Assembly: GCA_016930085.1 (NCBI GenBank)
Contig: JAFGHO010000071.1
Location: 1 to 39,323 of the forward strand
Origin: Spirochaetales bacterium
Lineage (GTDB): Bacteria; Spirochaetota; Spirochaetia; SZUA-6; JAFGRV01
Direction: 5' to 3'
DNA: 39,323 nt
Positions 1 through 23,274 of this stretch are shown here, in pieces (within the stretch, counting starts at the first letter, position 1; the number at the start of each line of letters is the position of its first letter). Under the pieces are notes generated by a model. That model was given only the letters and a program-made list of their open reading frames with translations, was not told where the DNA came from and did no database searches. A program made the position numbers and the translations under genes.

Positions 1-1757
1 AGCCGAGATCTTTCGGAGAACTGAAGGTGTTCGCAGATTTTGATGTGTTCCAGGCCGATGTAAAGACGTGCTGGTCTTCAGTCATCACGAATATATCGAC
101 ATATCCTGTTTTTCTCGATACCGGGTACACCTTTGCGCCTGGTTGCGCGTTAAAGGATCCGATCCGTTTCCATGTGGACCAGGAACCGTCCCACTGCTTG
201 CTGTAGACGCGGCCGTTGAGACCGACGGCGAATACGTGAATTCTGTTCTTGTCGCTGGCGATCGCCGAAACCGTTGCGACCGGCTGTCCGATCGAACCAA
301 GGGACCACCACCCTTTCCATGAACCGTAAGCACGGCCCGAATCCCAGGCGGCCGTCCAGACGTTCCCGTCCGTTCCTACGACAAAGGCGTCAAGTAATGA
401 CGAATAGCGAGAGATAAGTGCAGGTTCGGAACCGCACGTTGCAACACCGTTCGCTATCCTCCACCAGCCCTGCCATGCGCCGTTTGACTCGCTGTTGTCC
501 CATGCCGCCGTATAAATACCACCGTCCGAGCCGACAGCCATTACGTTCAATTGTTGCGAACCGCGGACCACGGCAGATACGGAAGAAGCACTCTGGCAGG
601 TAAGAGAACCGATAGTCCACCAGCCGCGGAATCCGGCTGAACCGTCCCGTGCCCTATCCCATGCCGCGGTATAGACGCGGTTGTTCGAGCCGACCGTAAA
701 TACGTCAAGTTTTTCAGGGTGGCGGGAAACGATTTTTACATCGGTACCAGGGGCGGTCACGCCATTAGCGATTTGCCACCAGCCCGCCCAGGAGCTTCCG
801 GTTTTTGCGGCGGTGAGGATCTTGCCGTCGCCGTTAACGCGTACGATGTCGATTCTCGAAGAATCACGGGAGACTGCGTCGGTACGGACGATGAAATTCG
901 GGGGATACATCGTGTAGATTGTATTGAGATCGCCGATGGAAAGCCGAACGTTCTGGCGTGAAAAAGTTGTCCCGTCGAGACGTGTGATTGCCGGTTTCGA
1001 CGTATCATTTTCAAATCCGGTGTAGGACGGGTAGAGCATGATTGACTGCCAGTCGAAATTGTGAAAGTTGAAACCGTCGTAACCGGAAGCAGAATATGTT
1101 TTGAAGTTGTGTTCCTTGTTGTCTAGAATGTTGTCGAAATGGATAGTGATGTAATTGTCCCTGTCCGTACGCGACTGTTCGTGGAACAGACCGAGTGCGT
1201 GTCCGATCTCGTGAACGGCTGTCCCGACCGAATAACCCGTCGCCAGATGGATCGTCTGTTTTTTACCCGTCATCCCTATGGCGGAGGAGTAGTAGCCATC
1301 CGAATCCTTGTTGAAAAAGAAACTGATGTAATTCTTTTCACTGCCGCGCTGCACAAACCTTACACCGAGGCTTCTGTAGTAATCGATTGCCGTGTTGAGG
1401 TTGGTCGTGCTTTTGAGACTCGATTCGATGTTAAAATACACCGTACGGTTCGGCCAGAATACGCTGGATTTTGTTCTACCCGCACCCTTAGAGGCGGAAA
1501 CGTCTTCCGGTTCCAGTACGATATCACCCTGGAAAACACATTTTCCATTGATTTCCTCGTATTCGATTTCCTCGCCGAGATACACGCCTGTTTTGACTGT
1601 TCCCTTTTGTCCGGGAAAGGCAAGGGGCATGGCTGCAGTTTCATTACCGTTTTCATCCGTGTCCGGGGCAGTATTGCCCGAATCAAGTGAGCAGCCTGTA
1701 AACATTAATGCGATGATGAGTGCCAACATGGCACATGTGGTTGTAATTCGATACATT
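1..1757 (-). CDS. Astacin-like metalloprotease lipoprotein with WW-repeat propeller (partial)
   Basis: This is an open frame of 585 codons that runs off the left edge with no stop, so the C-terminus is missing. It begins with a lipoprotein signal whose lipobox ends at Cys22 (LMFTGC). The catalytic domain has the extended zinc motif HEIGHALGLFHE at residues 182-193 (zinc ligands His182, His186 and His192; general base Glu183) and a Met-turn SIMLY at 238-242. This places it with astacin (M12A) metzincins. From about residue 300 there are at least five repeats of roughly 45-60 residues, each with a WxGWWxI-like start and a later VYTAAWD-like end. They resemble the blades of PLL-type lectin propellers. 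The protein is probably an outer-surface or periplasmic protease that binds glycans through the propeller; the substrate is unknown. An AAAGG ribosome site precedes the ATG. The protease call is firm; the lectin function is inferred. Confidence 0.9.
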
Positions 1758-8768: not shown

Positions 8769-9617
8769 TCAATGGGGAAACGGCGTATCGATTGGCGAAT
8801 CGCCTGAAGGTTTCCTGTTCAGTTTTACGATTTCGATACACTCGCCGATCCACATTTTATATCGTGGCGGGATAGCGTCCTGGTCGAAATTTATAATCAG
8901 TGATATAAGTCCCTTTTCCTTGCTTACTTCTTCAGATCGCTCGACCACACCGACCATTTCACCCATTTCCTTGAGCGCGTCGATCTTCATGAGCAGAATG
9001 ATCCGTTTATTGTAATATTCGGTCGGGGTTCCGTGTATTACGATCTTCGCGCTGAAAATGGAAATTTCGGTGAGAATGCATTTTTTCGCGTTACCGTCCA
9101 GAAAGAGAAAGGCTTCGATGGACTGAATTCCCATCCGGGCCTGATTTTTATCCCGGACAACGATGCGTTCGTATATTCGTTTTTCTTTTTCGGTCTGTTT
9201 ATTTATATACCTCCCGATAATGTCAATGAAATCGTCGGGGGGTTTTGTTAAAAATGAGAGTGTGAAAAAGAAAAGATCCGGTTTGTTTCCCTGATATTTG
9301 TTATAGGTGGTTACTTTCGCGTGAATATAAAACGTTATTTCCTTACTTGTATCGGGATGTCTGAATGAAAGCCGCAGGGATACCTTGCTGTTTGCCTTTT
9401 TTAGCTGCTCGAAAAAGGCGGTACTTATCTGAATGAGTATTTTCGCATCGATCATCGATGTAATGTAGAGAATACACGGGAAATTATCGTTTACGCATTT
9501 AAGCGTCGTTTTTTGGGCGAGGAGAGAGAGATTTTCAATCACATTCGTATTGAAAACAATATACTGATCCTTATAATTGTTATAATACTCTAAAAGCTGT
9601 TGCGGCGCATAAGCCAT
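8769..9617 (-). CDS. PilZ-like protein, divergent
   Basis: A 282-residue soluble protein. The N-terminal part (about 1-140) has alternating strands ending in LFFFTLSFLTKPPDDFIDIIGRYI. The C-terminal part begins with KRIYERIVVRDKNQARMG and then CILTEISIFSAKIVI, which matches the layout of a PilZ domain (an RxxxR switch, then a D/NxSxxG strand). The second motif is degenerate here, with TEISIFSAK in place of the usual D/N-x-S-x-x-G. This double-domain layout resembles PilZ proteins of treponemes and relatives. PilZ domains bind c-di-GMP; whether this one does is uncertain. A GGEDEF-EAL-type protein gene lies about 2.2 kb away. The gene stands alone with its own strong promoter. No secretion signal or membrane helix is visible. 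Confidence 0.6.
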   Translation of the reverse strand: MAYAPQQLLEYYNNYKDQYIVFNTNVIENLSLLAQKTTLKCVNDNFPCILYITSMIDAKILIQISTAFFEQLKKANSKVSLRLSFRHPDTSKEITFYIHAKVTTYNKYQGNKPDLFFFTLSFLTKPPDDFIDIIGRYINKQTEKEKRIYERIVVRDKNQARMGIQSIEAFLFLDGNAKKCILTEISIFSAKIVIHGTPTEYYNKRIILLMKIDALKEMGEMVGVVERSEEVSKEKGLISLIINFDQDAIPPRYKMWIGECIEIVKLNRKPSGDSPIDTPFPH

Positions 9618-15945: not shown

Positions 15946-18231
15946 ATGAAAAAAACAACTAACATACGCAAAATTGCGTTCCTCGGCGATTATCTTCCCA
16001 GAAAGTGCGGTATAGCGACATACACAACAGATTTGCGTAATGCGGTTGCACTGGAGTTTCCGACCACCCAATGCCTTGTCATTCCGGTCAATGACATCGA
16101 AGGCGGCTATGCGTATCCGCCGGAGGTACGGTTTGAGATCACGGAACAGGACTTGCCGTCCTATCTGCGCGCGGCGGATTTCCTTAACATCACAGATGTG
16201 GATGTTCTCTGTGTTGAACACGAGTTTGGTATATATGGTGGGTTGGAGGGCAGTTACCTGCTGGCATTGCTGCACGAGCTGCAAATGCCTATCGTTACCA
16301 CGCTCCATACAATACTACGTGAACCAAATCCTGAGCAGCTGCGCGTGATGTGTGAATTAATACGGCTTTCCACGAGGCTTTTGGCTATGACTGAAAAAGG
16401 CCGGGAGTTTTTGCTCGATGTCTATCAAGTATCCTCAGACAAGATAGACCTTATTCCGCACGGTATCCCCGACATGCCATTTGCCGATCCCAATTATTTT
16501 AAGGATGAGTTTGGCGTTGCAGGCAGGCAGGTATTACTTACCTTCGGGCTCCTTTCACCTAACAAGGGTATCGAGTACGTCCTGCGTGCGCTGCCGGATA
16601 TCATCACTGAGTTTCCCAACACGGTTTTCATAGTGGTAGGCCAGACACACCCGAATATTCTGCGACATGAGAGTGAGTTTTACCGGTTAAGCCTCGAGCG
16701 TATGGCCAAGGCCCTTGGAGTTCAGAAGCATGTTGTATTCTTCAATCGTTTTGTCGAGTTGGAGGAGCTTATACGATTTATCGGTGCGACTGATATTTAC
16801 CTTACACCCTACCTGACTGAAACACAGATAACCTCGGGCACGCTTGCCTATGCCTTCGGCTCCGGTAATGCTGTTGTATCCACACCCTACTGGCACGCTG
16901 CAGAACTGCTGGCCGACGGCCGTGGTAAACTGGTACCGTTTCGTGATGCAGCAGCAATAGCGCATGCTGTAATCGATCTGCTGCACGACGAGCCGTTGCG
17001 ACATTCGATGCGTAAAAATGCCTATCAGAAAGGCCGTGAGATGGTATGGAGCCGTGTGGCGCAACTTTATGTGAAATCCTTCCACCAGGCAGGTCAGGAT
17101 CACAGCTTCGTGGGTCGGAAATCATCACCCATCAAGACCCTTGATGAGCAGCCGGATCAGCTGCCCATGCTGAAACTCGACCATCTGTATCGAATGAGTG
17201 ATTCGGCCGGAATATTTCAGCATGCCAGTTTTACGGTTCCGAATTTTGCCGAAGGCTATTGCACGGACGATAATGCGCGTGCATTGTTGCTGACGCTGAA
17301 ACTTCAGCAGTCGGGGCATCGTTCGCTTCGTATCAATGATTTGGCCGCATCCTATGCTGCATTTTTAAACTACGCCTTTGACAGGAAGAGCCACCGGTTC
17401 CGCAATTTTATGAGCTTCGACCGTCGCTGGCTTCAGGAAACCGGTTCGGAAGATTGCCATGGTCATGCCTTGTGGGCGTTGGGGCTCTGTATGGGGCATG
17501 AAGACCACGGCAGTTACCACATGCTGGCTGCAGAACTTTTCGAGCAAGCCCTTCCCGTTGCATCCGGATTCACTTCACCACGCGCGTGGGCGTTCACGCT
17601 TATCGGTATTGACGAGTACCTCGGGCGGCTGAGTGGCGACCGGCGTGCGAACCAGATTCGTGAATCACTTTCAGCGAAACTGATGCAACGCTATGCCGAT
17701 AGCGCGACCGAACACTGGCAATGGTTTGAAGACGTTGTTTCCTACGCGAATGCCAAGCTGTCGCATGCGCTGATACTTAGCGGCCGCAGGATGAACGATG
17801 ATATGATGCTTGAAACCGGTCTCAAAACATTACGCTGGCTGGTAAAGGTTCAAACATCTGATACCGGTTCGTTCCGGCCTATCGGTTCAAACGGATTTTT
17901 CAGGAGAGGACAGGAACGGGCATTGTTCGACCAGCAACCGATAGAGGCCCAGGTCACGGTATCAGCGTGCATCGAGGCATATTATGCAACAGCTGATTTG
18001 TCCTGGGCTGTGGAAGCACGACGGGCTTTCGAATGGTTCCTGGGACGGAACGATCTGGGATTGGCGCTTTATGACTCATGTACAGGAGGCTGCCGGGACG
18101 GTCTGCATGTCGACCGGTTGAGTCAAAACCAGGGTTCCGAGTCGACGCTCGCTTTCCTGCTGTCATTGGAGGAAATGCAGACACTCCAGAGCAGACTCAT
18201 CAGCTTCAAGGAACCGCAGGGTGAATCGTGA
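15946..18231 (+). CDS. GT4 glycosyltransferase fused to a helical (alpha/alpha)-type domain
   Basis: A 761-residue fusion. The first half (about 8-390) is a GT-B glycosyltransferase of family GT4: GDYLPRKCGIATYTTDL at the N-terminus, VEHEFGIYGG, then TFGLLSPNKGIEYVLRAL and TPYLTETQITSGTLAYAFGSG, where nucleotide-sugar donors bind in GT4 enzymes. The second half (about 410-745) has helix-rich segments such as YCTDDNARALLLTLKL and DCHGHALWALGL, like (alpha/alpha)6-barrel glycan enzymes. An AAGGAGA site precedes the ATG. The next gene, a GH130 enzyme, overlaps its stop by one base, so the two proteins are probably made together. Since GH130 enzymes act on beta-mannosides, this is likely a mannosyltransferase that makes a mannose-containing glycan. 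Donor, linkage and the helical domain's role are inferred. Confidence 0.8.
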   Translation: MKKTTNIRKIAFLGDYLPRKCGIATYTTDLRNAVALEFPTTQCLVIPVNDIEGGYAYPPEVRFEITEQDLPSYLRAADFLNITDVDVLCVEHEFGIYGGLEGSYLLALLHELQMPIVTTLHTILREPNPEQLRVMCELIRLSTRLLAMTEKGREFLLDVYQVSSDKIDLIPHGIPDMPFADPNYFKDEFGVAGRQVLLTFGLLSPNKGIEYVLRALPDIITEFPNTVFIVVGQTHPNILRHESEFYRLSLERMAKALGVQKHVVFFNRFVELEELIRFIGATDIYLTPYLTETQITSGTLAYAFGSGNAVVSTPYWHAAELLADGRGKLVPFRDAAAIAHAVIDLLHDEPLRHSMRKNAYQKGREMVWSRVAQLYVKSFHQAGQDHSFVGRKSSPIKTLDEQPDQLPMLKLDHLYRMSDSAGIFQHASFTVPNFAEGYCTDDNARALLLTLKLQQSGHRSLRINDLAASYAAFLNYAFDRKSHRFRNFMSFDRRWLQETGSEDCHGHALWALGLCMGHEDHGSYHMLAAELFEQALPVASGFTSPRAWAFTLIGIDEYLGRLSGDRRANQIRESLSAKLMQRYADSATEHWQWFEDVVSYANAKLSHALILSGRRMNDDMMLETGLKTLRWLVKVQTSDTGSFRPIGSNGFFRRGQERALFDQQPIEAQVTVSACIEAYYATADLSWAVEARRAFEWFLGRNDLGLALYDSCTGGCRDGLHVDRLSQNQGSESTLAFLLSLEEMQTLQSRLISFKEPQGES

Positions 18232-19736
18232 TGGACAAAGCGTTTACTGTCAATAACAATGGAATTACAACCGGTAAGATTTATCAAATGGTGCACGCAA
18301 AACGTATCGGGCCGACGCTTACCCCGGACCGCTCCCGGGTCCTGATGCGGCCATTTTATCCTGTCGTAAAAGATATCACGCGGAGAATCATCGCACGCAT
18401 TCTGGCACTCTCGGATGAAGAAGCAGTCAAAATGCTGTATCGGGTGCTGGGCGAGTTTGAAGACAGGCATGAACACGTTGAGAAAATATTCAGAAATCGT
18501 TTCATACAGGTAAAGCGCTTCATGGATGTGGGACAGGAAATATCATCGGAACGGCAGGCACTCATCGGGTCCTATTTTTCACACGAATATTCACCGGAGT
18601 CGGCGGCACTCTTCAATCCTTCCATTGTGCCGCACCCCGAGCAGACAGGGCTTCCTGCCGGTTCGCTGCGTTTTATTCTGAGTCTTCGCGCCACGGGCGA
18701 AGGGCACATATCCTCCATCACCTTCCGCATGGGCGTCATTAGTGCGCGGCATCGTATCACACTCACGCCTCCTGTTCCGTTTGTGACGGAACCGGAACCC
18801 GTACCCAACGCAGTTTACGAGAAAGCACTTTTTGCCCGCAAACTGAAGGAGGCGGGTCTGCACAATAACTTTTGCCGGTGCGTTGTGGATCAACTTCCCG
18901 GGGAATTTATCCTTGATGACCTGCGCCGCATTCTGGAGGAAGAACGCCGCAAAATGAATCCGGTCGATGCGATGGCCGACCGTGCCACACAGGGCATCCT
19001 GTTGCTCGCCGAATCCAACTATGAAGTGCGTTTTACTTCCGACAGCCGTGTCTCCCAGCGCGTTATCTTTCCATCAGTACCCAGTCAGAGTAACGGTATT
19101 GAGGATGCGCGATTCGTTCGATTTCAAACCAGTGACAATGGCTTTACCTACTATGCAACCTACACCGCGTACGACGGTAAGATCACGTTACCCCAATTGC
19201 TGGAGACCCGTGATTTTGTCCACTTCAAGTTTATTACACTCAATGGCGCCGCGGTGCAGAATAAAGGCATGGCCTTGTTTCCACGCAAAATCAACGGACA
19301 TTATGCCATGCTCTCGCGACAGGATGATGAAAACATCCTTCTGATGTACTCCGACAATATCCATTTCTGGCAAACGTCCAGGTTGTTGCTGCAGCCTTCC
19401 CAACCGTGGGAACTCGTGAAGATTGGTACCTGTGGTTCGCCTATCGAGACAAAGGACGGCTGGCTGGTGTTGAGTCACGGGGTAGGTCCCATGCGGAAGT
19501 ATTGTATCGGTGCTTTCCTGCTGGACCTTGAAGATCCCTCACGGGTTATCGGCCGCCTGCGTGAGCCGTTGCTGGAACCGAATGAAACCGAGCGTGAAGG
19601 TTATGTACCGAATGTCGTGTACACGTGTGGTGCGCTGCTGCACGGCAGTGAACTCGTTATCCCTTATGCAATGAGCGATTATGCCACGAGCTTCGCCACT
19701 GTGATGCTGGATGAACTTCTGGGGGCAATGGTATAA
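18231..19736 (+). CDS. GH130 beta-mannoside phosphorylase or mannosidase
   Basis: A 501-residue protein. An N-terminal region of about 240 residues (SHEYSPESAALFNPSIVPHP, then RATGEGHISSITFR) precedes a five-bladed propeller catalytic domain. NGIEDARF (about 289-296) holds Asp292, the expected general acid of GH130 enzymes. Later motifs are TYTAYDG, SPIETKDGWLVLSHGVG, EGYVPNVVY and IPYAMSDYATSFA. Family members split beta-mannosides with phosphate, or hydrolyse them, and phosphorylases can also run in the synthetic direction. ATG at 18231 overlaps the upstream TGA as TGATG; a GTG three bases earlier is the alternative. No secretion signal is present, so the substrate should be cytoplasmic, for example an internal mannan made by the upstream glycosyltransferase. 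Phosphorylase versus hydrolase is not resolved. Confidence 0.87.
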   Translation: MDKAFTVNNNGITTGKIYQMVHAKRIGPTLTPDRSRVLMRPFYPVVKDITRRIIARILALSDEEAVKMLYRVLGEFEDRHEHVEKIFRNRFIQVKRFMDVGQEISSERQALIGSYFSHEYSPESAALFNPSIVPHPEQTGLPAGSLRFILSLRATGEGHISSITFRMGVISARHRITLTPPVPFVTEPEPVPNAVYEKALFARKLKEAGLHNNFCRCVVDQLPGEFILDDLRRILEEERRKMNPVDAMADRATQGILLLAESNYEVRFTSDSRVSQRVIFPSVPSQSNGIEDARFVRFQTSDNGFTYYATYTAYDGKITLPQLLETRDFVHFKFITLNGAAVQNKGMALFPRKINGHYAMLSRQDDENILLMYSDNIHFWQTSRLLLQPSQPWELVKIGTCGSPIETKDGWLVLSHGVGPMRKYCIGAFLLDLEDPSRVIGRLREPLLEPNETEREGYVPNVVYTCGALLHGSELVIPYAMSDYATSFATVMLDELLGAMV

Positions 19737-21252: not shown

Positions 21253-23274
21253 ATGAAAAAAAACATTATCAGCATTCTTTATCTTCTTTTTTCCGTCACG
21301 TTTCTTTTTTCACAGGTATATAAAGACCCGAATGCTTCGATTGAAGAGAGGGTGAACGATCTTCTTTCGCGTATGACATTACGGCAGAAAATAGGGCAGA
21401 TGACTCAGGCGGAAAAGAATGCCCTCGATCCGGGCGATGTGGGCAACAATTGCATCGGTTCGATCTTGAGCGGGGCGGATTCGGAGGCGGAACCGAACAA
21501 CATCGCCTCGGACTGGGCGGACATGTATGACGAGTTCCAGCGTGAGGCGATGAACGCGAGTCTCGGAATTCCGGTCATTTACGGAGTGGACGCGATTCAC
21601 GGATTCGGTAATGTCAATGGGGCAACGGTGTTCCCCCACAATATCGGCCTCGGCGCCGCCCGCGATCCCGATCTTCTCGAAGAGATCGGCCGTATCGTCG
21701 CGCGGGAGGTCGCCGCAACCGGAGTCGACATGACGTTCGGCCCGTGTCTGACGGTCCCCCGCAACGAACGATGGGGGAGAACCTATGAAGGGTTCGGCGA
21801 AGACCCGGAAATACACCGACTGTTAGGCGGGCGGTATGTTACCGGCTTTCAGGGGCAGGACCTGAGTGGCGGGGAGCGGATATGCGCCACAGCAAAGCAT
21901 TGGGTCGGTGACGGAGGGACTACAAACGGCAAGGACCGCGGCGATACACAGGCTACGGAGCAGGAACTCAGGGATATTCACATGGCCGCCTACGAGTCGG
22001 CGTTCAGTGCCGGGGTGGGTTCCGTTATGATTTCATACTCGAGCTGGAACTCGCAAAAATGTCACGGAAGCGGAAGGCTTATCACCGATATTCTCAAAAA
22101 CGAGAAAGGATTCGACGGTTTCGTCATATCCGATTACAATGGTATTATGGAACTTTCCGGTTCGTACAGCGACCAGGTGAGGGCCGCCGTGAACGCGGGA
22201 ATCGATTTGTTTATGGAACCTTTCAACTGGCAGTCGTTCATGTCGACGCTCGAATCCCTTGTCGCAAACGGACAGGTATCGGAGTCGAGGATCGACGACG
22301 CCGTACGGAGAATTCTCCGCATAAAGTTCCGGATGGGGCTTTTCGAACACCCCTACGCAGACCGTTCGCTGCTTGCGAGCGTCGGATCGACGTCCCACCG
22401 GGCCGTTGCGCGGGAGGCGGTTCGAAAGAGTCTCGTGCTGCTGAAGAACGACGGTGTTCTTCCACTTTCAAAAAGCGGTTCGGTTTTTGTCGCCGGAAAG
22501 AACGCTGACGACATCGGCAACCAATGCGGCGGCTGGACGATCAGCTGGCAGGGGTCGAGCGGCAACATCACCGAGGGGACGACCATCCTTCAGGGAATCA
22601 GGAACACAATCGGTTCGTCGGGGAAGGTGACATTCAGCCGGAACGGAAGCGGCGCACAGGGACATGACGTTGCCGTTGTCGTCATCGGCGAAACGCCCTA
22701 CGCGGAAAGCCGCGGGGACTCGAACGATCTTTCGCTTGCCTCCGAAGACATCAGTGTGCTCAATACCGTCTCGAATGCCGGTATCCCGATGGTGGTTGTG
22801 CTGGTTTCGGGCCGGCCCATGCTCGTCACCGGTCAGATCGGCAACTGGAATGCTTTTGTCGCGGCATGGCTTCCCGGCTCCGAGGGCATGGGAGTCGCCG
22901 ACGTCCTGTTCGGCGATTACGATTTCAGCGGCAGGCTGGCTTTTACATGGCCGAGGGATATGGGGCAGATACCGGTCAATGTCGGCGATGCGGTTTACGA
23001 CCCGCTTTTTGCGTACGGCGAGGGGCTTTCCTACGGCGGAACGACGCCGGGGCCGACCTCCGCCCCGTCGGGTCAACCGGGCGACGTCAATGAAAACGGC
23101 ACTATCGATATCGTGGATGCGCTTTTAGTCGCGCAGTATTATGTCGGATTATTTCCCGCGGCTTACACGGCACCGGAGTCGATCGGGGATGTGAATGGAA
23201 ACGGTAATGTCGATATCGTCGACGCGCTTTTGATCGCCCAGTTTTACGTCGGGATCATCACCGGGTTTCCCTAG
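21253..23274 (+). CDS. Secreted GH3 beta-glucosidase with dockerin-like C-terminus
   Basis: A 673-residue exported enzyme with a signal peptide (about 1-21). The GH3 barrel holds the nucleophile Asp294 in GFVISDYNG; the second domain holds ETPYAESRGD, where Glu485 fits the acid/base residue of barley exo-glucanase-type GH3 enzymes. KHWVGDGGTTNGKDRGD (about 215-231) is the substrate-binding loop. A Thr/Pro/Ser-rich linker (about 596-607) leads to two repeats 35 residues apart, GDVNENGTIDIVDALLVAQ (610) and GDVNGNGNVDIVDALLIAQ (645). Their Asp/Asn pattern matches the calcium-binding loops of type I dockerins. The enzyme likely releases glucose from beta-glucans outside the cytoplasm. No cohesin is seen here. 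AAAGGAGTA precedes the ATG. The stop shares a CTAG with the converging gene. Confidence 0.9.
   Translation: MKKNIISILYLLFSVTFLFSQVYKDPNASIEERVNDLLSRMTLRQKIGQMTQAEKNALDPGDVGNNCIGSILSGADSEAEPNNIASDWADMYDEFQREAMNASLGIPVIYGVDAIHGFGNVNGATVFPHNIGLGAARDPDLLEEIGRIVAREVAATGVDMTFGPCLTVPRNERWGRTYEGFGEDPEIHRLLGGRYVTGFQGQDLSGGERICATAKHWVGDGGTTNGKDRGDTQATEQELRDIHMAAYESAFSAGVGSVMISYSSWNSQKCHGSGRLITDILKNEKGFDGFVISDYNGIMELSGSYSDQVRAAVNAGIDLFMEPFNWQSFMSTLESLVANGQVSESRIDDAVRRILRIKFRMGLFEHPYADRSLLASVGSTSHRAVAREAVRKSLVLLKNDGVLPLSKSGSVFVAGKNADDIGNQCGGWTISWQGSSGNITEGTTILQGIRNTIGSSGKVTFSRNGSGAQGHDVAVVVIGETPYAESRGDSNDLSLASEDISVLNTVSNAGIPMVVVLVSGRPMLVTGQIGNWNAFVAAWLPGSEGMGVADVLFGDYDFSGRLAFTWPRDMGQIPVNVGDAVYDPLFAYGEGLSYGGTTPGPTSAPSGQPGDVNENGTIDIVDALLVAQYYVGLFPAAYTAPESIGDVNGNGNVDIVDALLIAQFYVGIITGFP

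Follow-up and report, generated by a model that had tools for sequence, protein, structure and literature searches.

The Gene at the Contig Edge

The window, that is, the whole 39,323-nucleotide stretch of Spirochaetales DNA that was analyzed, opened with a gene on the minus strand (positions 2–1756). The translation gave one uninterrupted frame of 585 amino acids with no stop codon and open at the 3′ side. Its N-terminus, MYRITTTCAMLALIIALMFTGC, was that of a signal peptide with a lipobox-like MFTGC and was followed by a prodomain, HEIGHALGLFHEQSRTDRD at residue 182, SIMLY at residue 238 and Trp-rich repeats up to the contig end. Based on the translation and the profile matches, it is nearly certain that the gene encodes a lipoprotein in which a pro-astacin is joined to a PLL-type propeller. 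A sequence-only reading of the same DNA had claimed an astacin and a PLL-type propeller behind a lipobox, and the profiles, the structure models and a complete homologue all agreed with this claim.

The window started at base 1 of its contig. The first 24 bases occurred only once in the genome, and no overlapping sequence was found elsewhere for a leftward extension. Therefore, the gene was cut by the assembly, its 3′ end was lost, and the contig could not be extended on this side. Judged from the complete homologue L033, about 50 C-terminal residues (blade 7 of the propeller) are expected to be absent from the window protein. The G+C content of the propeller part was 56% and that of the protease part 48%; since the window itself spanned 41–55% in 3-kb steps, nothing was concluded from this difference. 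No substrate-linked neighbor of the gene was found.

The Catalytic Domain

The astacin catalytic domain (residues 101–285; positions 902–1456, minus strand) was recognized by Pfam, by sequence matches to solved structures and by Foldseek. The Pfam Astacin profile matched residues 101–284 with an E-value of 6.1e-33 and 114.5 bits against a cut-off of 22.5, and the best match of the protease part among the solved structures was meprin β (4.9e-23). The translation and the alignment placed the zinc motif HEIGHALGLFHEQ at residues 182–194 (positions 1175–1213, minus strand), and the HExxHxxGxxHE pattern, including the family Glu, was complete at residues 182–193. The Met-turn SIMLY (residues 238–242; positions 1031–1045, minus strand) retained Tyr242, and the His of SxMHY was replaced by Leu. 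This position was occupied by Leu or Met in 53 of the 55 relatives from Bacteroidota and Fibrobacterota and by His in most others. The zinc motif noted in the sequence-only reading was thereby confirmed, and the Met-turn was present in this altered form.

Two cysteines located upstream of the zinc motif were both missing in the window protein and were present in the other 55 members of its clade. In the alignment, a Tyr was found in or beside the place of the lost cysteines. As far as can be judged from these residues, the loss of the pair could mean either that the gene is decaying or that the protein is adapted to a reducing niche.

The LegP profile (NF045530) matched with an E-value of 6e-44 and 150.5 bits, below its curated cut-off of 300. 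LegP, an astacin effector of the Legionella Dot/Icm system, resembled the window protein in its astacin domain and in the GD motif of its pro-part, but it stops after the protease and carries no propeller. The zymogens of crayfish astacin and meprin β (3lq0, 4gwm) shared the fold, the zinc motif and the FxGD prodomain, whereas these animal proteins have other C-terminal domains or none.

Lipobox, Prodomain and Candidate Activation Site

The predicted signal peptide was encoded at positions 1691–1756 of the minus strand. The lipobox MFTG-C22 was found by inspection, and Cys22 is the predicted site of lipidation. The Phe at −3 was atypical; a Phe in this position is tolerated in spirochetes. A lipobox-like signal was also found in 48 of the 55 relatives from Bacteroidota and Fibrobacterota.

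The prodomain (residues 23–93; positions 1478–1690, minus strand) contained FQGD at residues 75–78, and the motif and its conservation suggest that Asp78 is the zinc blocker of an aspartate switch. The FQGDI at residues 75–79 corresponds to the animal-type FXGDI motif. In published accounts, FXGDI is described as common to animal astacins, its Asp blocking the zinc in the zymogen (PMC9848320, PMC9629494). Myroilysin from Myroides is, like the window protein, a bacterial astacin zymogen, but the review describes it as lacking FXGDI and being kept latent by a cysteine switch instead (PMC9848320). Among the sequences fetched, the GD motif was present at the expected distance in all 55 relatives from Bacteroidota and Fibrobacterota, in 35 of the 40 other bacterial relatives and in 6 of the 28 spirochete astacins.

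A candidate activation site, Arg94-Thr95 in GAGRTKSSVFW (positions 1472–1477, minus strand), was proposed from conservation within the clade. It lay in the low-confidence, flexible segment of the AlphaFold model (residues 89–95). The form S[VAT]GRT was widespread in the clade; Arg followed by Thr, Ser, Asn or Ala preceded the catalytic domain in 49 of the 56 members, and a basic residue did so in all 56. The homologue L033 lacked the GRT form and had GAATNGSRW, with basic residues only. Cleavage at or near Arg94 would presumably activate the enzyme.

Characterized astacins lose their prodomain and bury the N-terminus that results (PMC9629494). A cut at Arg94 would separate Cys22 from the catalytic domain, so that the lipid would no longer tether the active enzyme. 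Hence, the lipid-anchored surface protease docked on glycans, as proposed in the sequence-only reading, was supported only in part: its active form is probably not lipid-anchored, because the anchor precedes the FxGD prodomain and the GRT cleavage candidate.

The Propeller and Its Candidate Sugar Sites

Positions 2–901 of the minus strand were assigned by the profiles, models and blade alignment to blades 1–6 of a PLL/CV39L-type propeller, with blade 7 expected past the contig end. The repeat half was matched by the NCBIfam profiles for the CV39L lectin (E 1e-30) and the beta-propeller lectin (E 3.7e-29), both below the curated cut-offs. With the incomplete protein as the query, NF052348 and NF052350 gave 101.9 and 107 bits against cut-offs of 200 and 350; the complete L033 was likewise below both. 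The best match among the solved structures was CV39L (1.7e-5). The repeats recurred about every 50 residues (lags 52, 105 and 203), and this periodicity was above that of all 200 shuffles. The previously claimed five or more WxGWW...AAWD repeats were thus real as repeats and inexact as worded, since GWW was found in four of the six blades and AAWD in three.

The AlphaFold model of the window protein, built on a 25-row alignment, contained six blades at a mean pLDDT of 79.6, and the full-length model of L033 contained seven at 81.6; the propeller alignments were shallow for both models. When the window model was compared with the PDB by Foldseek, the PLL5 lectin (E 2e-14) and crayfish pro-astacin 3lq0 (E 4e-14, 223 columns) were retrieved. 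The L033 model retrieved PHL, PLL2 and PLL5 with a target TM of 0.79–0.83 (about 0.81–0.83 for PHL and PLL2). The structure prediction that had been suggested as a check on the propeller therefore recovered it, with the Photorhabdus PLL lectins as the best matches.

The lectins PLL, PLL2, PLL5 and PHL of Photorhabdus, CV39L and BP39L share with the window propeller the seven-bladed fold, the Trp-rich repeats and the inter-blade aromatics, but all of them are stand-alone lectins. The sugar sites of the PLL family are formed by aromatic residues between the blades; in PHL, Thr194, Trp199 and Trp214 belong to the fucose site, and Arg186, Glu188 and Trp202 to the galactose site (PMC5584973). When the profile alignment was mapped to the blades, the equivalents of Trp214 were retained in blades 1–5 and those of Trp202 in blades 2–6. 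In contrast to the Photorhabdus-type lectins, the Trp199 equivalents were mostly Tyr (Leu, Tyr, Tyr, Trp, Tyr and Phe in blades 1–6), and the blades had an extra loop residue. The Thr194 position was occupied by Ser, Ser, Thr, Leu and Glu in blades 2–6. Sugar binding by the propeller is plausible from these residues; with the altered site positions, it may also have been lost or changed.

Homologues, Rarity and Origin

The complete homologue L033, a frame of 640 amino acids in a Fibrobacteria MAG (JADGQO010000167.1), was found in the scan of bacterial genomes. It matched residues 12–570 of the window protein with 39% identity in the best segment. Like the window protein, it had a lipobox, a GD prodomain, an astacin domain and a PLL-type propeller; unlike it, L033 was complete with seven blades, retained both catalytic-domain cysteines and had SVMMY as its Met-turn. 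A natural stop followed the seventh blade, so six of the seven blades lie in the window.

No second copy of the gene was present in its own genome. Two weak matches considered as further PLL copies there (on contigs C115 and C128) were rejected, since on inspection they were not PLL lectins. An astacin match was found in 28 of the 393 sampled genomes of the phylum, the own genome included, and none except that of the window extended over a propeller. In the same sample the propeller-lectin profile scored better than 1e-10 in the window only. Among the best 80 genome-wide loci listed, a PLL-type fusion was clear only in L033, and there may be further cases beyond these loci. Two others carried an astacin followed by propellers of other families, namely an astacin-tectonin fusion in a Fibrobacteria MAG (L067:5650–7401) and an astacin with another propeller-lectin type in a Bipolaricaulota MAG (L069:2979–4967), the latter without an evident lipobox. 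The plasmid homologues among the matches listed had an astacin or a propeller alone and none covered 80% of the query; no viral or phage homologues were found. The joining of an astacin to a propeller was not found in the literature searched, and no propeller appeared among the astacins in the available part of the 2023 review. The fusion is thus real and as unusual as had been supposed, although its parts are already known.

In a tree of 122 catalytic domains, the window protein was placed in a 55-row Bacteroidota/Fibrobacterota clade (99/91; bootstrap not settled), away from the spirochete astacins. Vertical inheritance from spirochete astacins is disfavored by this placement, and gene transfer is the likely origin of the astacin gene as far as the tree indicates. 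Both L033 and the window protein were near the base of the clade, the exact placement of the window protein within it not being fixed by the tree, and they were not sisters. Therefore, one ancestral astacin-PLL fusion or two separate ones are both possible on these sequences.

Genomic Setting

The FlaA protein of the spirochete periplasmic flagellar sheath was found in the genome (E 6.5e-62) and was absent from 14 control genomes. Dockerin type I domains were matched at least 148 times in the genome (150 of the 241 candidates were scored). A scaffoldin-like protein of 1680 amino acids (L145:1677–6719, minus strand; G000:C104) combined a CBM3 and an internal dockerin with three or more stretches of cohesin, and its gene was adjoined by that of a GH5 cellulase with CBM3 and dockerin (L145:7079–9070). 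Within the window, a GH3 gene was located at positions 21253–23274, and a GH130-type mannooligosaccharide phosphorylase-like protein (15946–18231) adjoined a glycosyltransferase-domain protein (18228–19736). No dockerin was found by Pfam in the 585 residues present of the astacin-propeller protein, the C-terminus of which is missing, and L033 also had none.

Going by this genomic context, the organism is a probable plant-fiber degrader and is probably anaerobic, which fits better than a life on mucin or algae. The proposal that the propeller docks on host mucin or algal polysaccharide was unsupported, as the PLL sugar-site residues were altered and the genome resembled that of a cellulosomal plant-fiber degrader.

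The dockerins, the scaffoldin-like protein and the adjacent cellulase together amount to an apparent spirochete cellulosome, which may outrank the astacin in interest; no described spirochete cellulosome was found in the literature searched. Cohesins were also found in three of the four other family members (G002, G003 and G004, with 7, 12 and 19 matches, part of them in frames above 5000 amino acids) and, beyond the family, in just one (G022) of the genomes sampled across the order and class.

Proposed Mechanism and Alternatives

It was proposed, as the probable reading with considerable room for doubt, that the protein is a secreted lipoprotein zymogen in which the activation cut is also the release from the membrane and the propeller does the targeting. 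Once exported, the protein would acquire its lipid at Cys22 and stay attached to the envelope, with Asp78 of FQGD plugging the catalytic zinc (ligands His182, His186 and His192, and Tyr242). The cut at or near Arg94 would be made by a trypsin-like or Arg-specific protease, and the new N-terminus would then be taken up by the catalytic domain, as happens in other astacins; Glu193 is present for this. The active astacin would shed the lipid-bearing pro-part and keep the seven-bladed propeller at its C-terminus. From then on it would be the propeller and no longer the lipid that keeps the protease on its target, by binding several sugar residues at once and so concentrating it on glycan-coated proteins, most likely in a plant-fiber or microbial-biofilm setting, as the genome suggests. 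The domains, the motifs, the fold match, their conservation and the rarity of the fusion are shown by the analysis, whereas lipidation, latency, the cleavage site, release, glycan binding and the target are inferred.

It is unlikely that the enzyme remains lipid-anchored, either uncleaved or with its halves staying together, so that the cell sticks to glycans through the propeller and the protease acts locally. The clear lipobox and the similar signals in most clade relatives agree with such an anchor, but it precedes a prodomain of the kind that characterized astacins lose before burying the new N-terminus (PMC9629494). The altered sugar-site residues, the scores under the NCBIfam lectin cut-offs and the unrelated C-terminal modules on other bacterial astacins would all suit a propeller that is a protein-protein or structural module without sugar binding, on a protease that processes the cell's own surface proteins. 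This explanation was considered slightly less likely again, since the inter-blade aromatics are largely kept and related astacins carry a tectonin or another lectin-type propeller at the same place. A decaying pseudogene or a chimeric contig is very improbable: the contig does end within the gene and the paired Cys are lost, but the catalytic residues are all intact in 585 open codons, the best matches of the window gene at 8769–9617 (54–56% identity) come from two other members of the family, and the genome contamination is 2%.

The proposed zymogen bears on whether bacterial astacins share the animal latency and whether their activation is a membrane release. More tentatively, and with somewhat more doubt than confidence, lipoprotein zymogens of the astacin family may form a lineage that is widespread in bacteria, with the animal-type aspartate switch, an activation cut that also frees the enzyme from the membrane, and three or more recruitments of propeller lectins as targeting modules. 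If true, this would go against what has been published, namely that FXGDI latency is confined to animal orthologues and that bacteria acquired their astacins sporadically from animal hosts.

In soil and marine bacteria (L033–L112), astacins whose prodomain carries the animal-type GD motif were common. This observation is at odds with the 2023 review, in which bacterial astacins are called sporadic and mostly found in animal-associated hosts (PMC9848320). Since the relatives are not limited to animal colonizers but include soil and marine bacteria, the clade bears on the origin of astacins. In Bacteroidota, two astacin genes were often located near each other on the same strand, with variable C-terminal modules (L037, L038, L044, L045, L046, L048, L049, L070 and L071).
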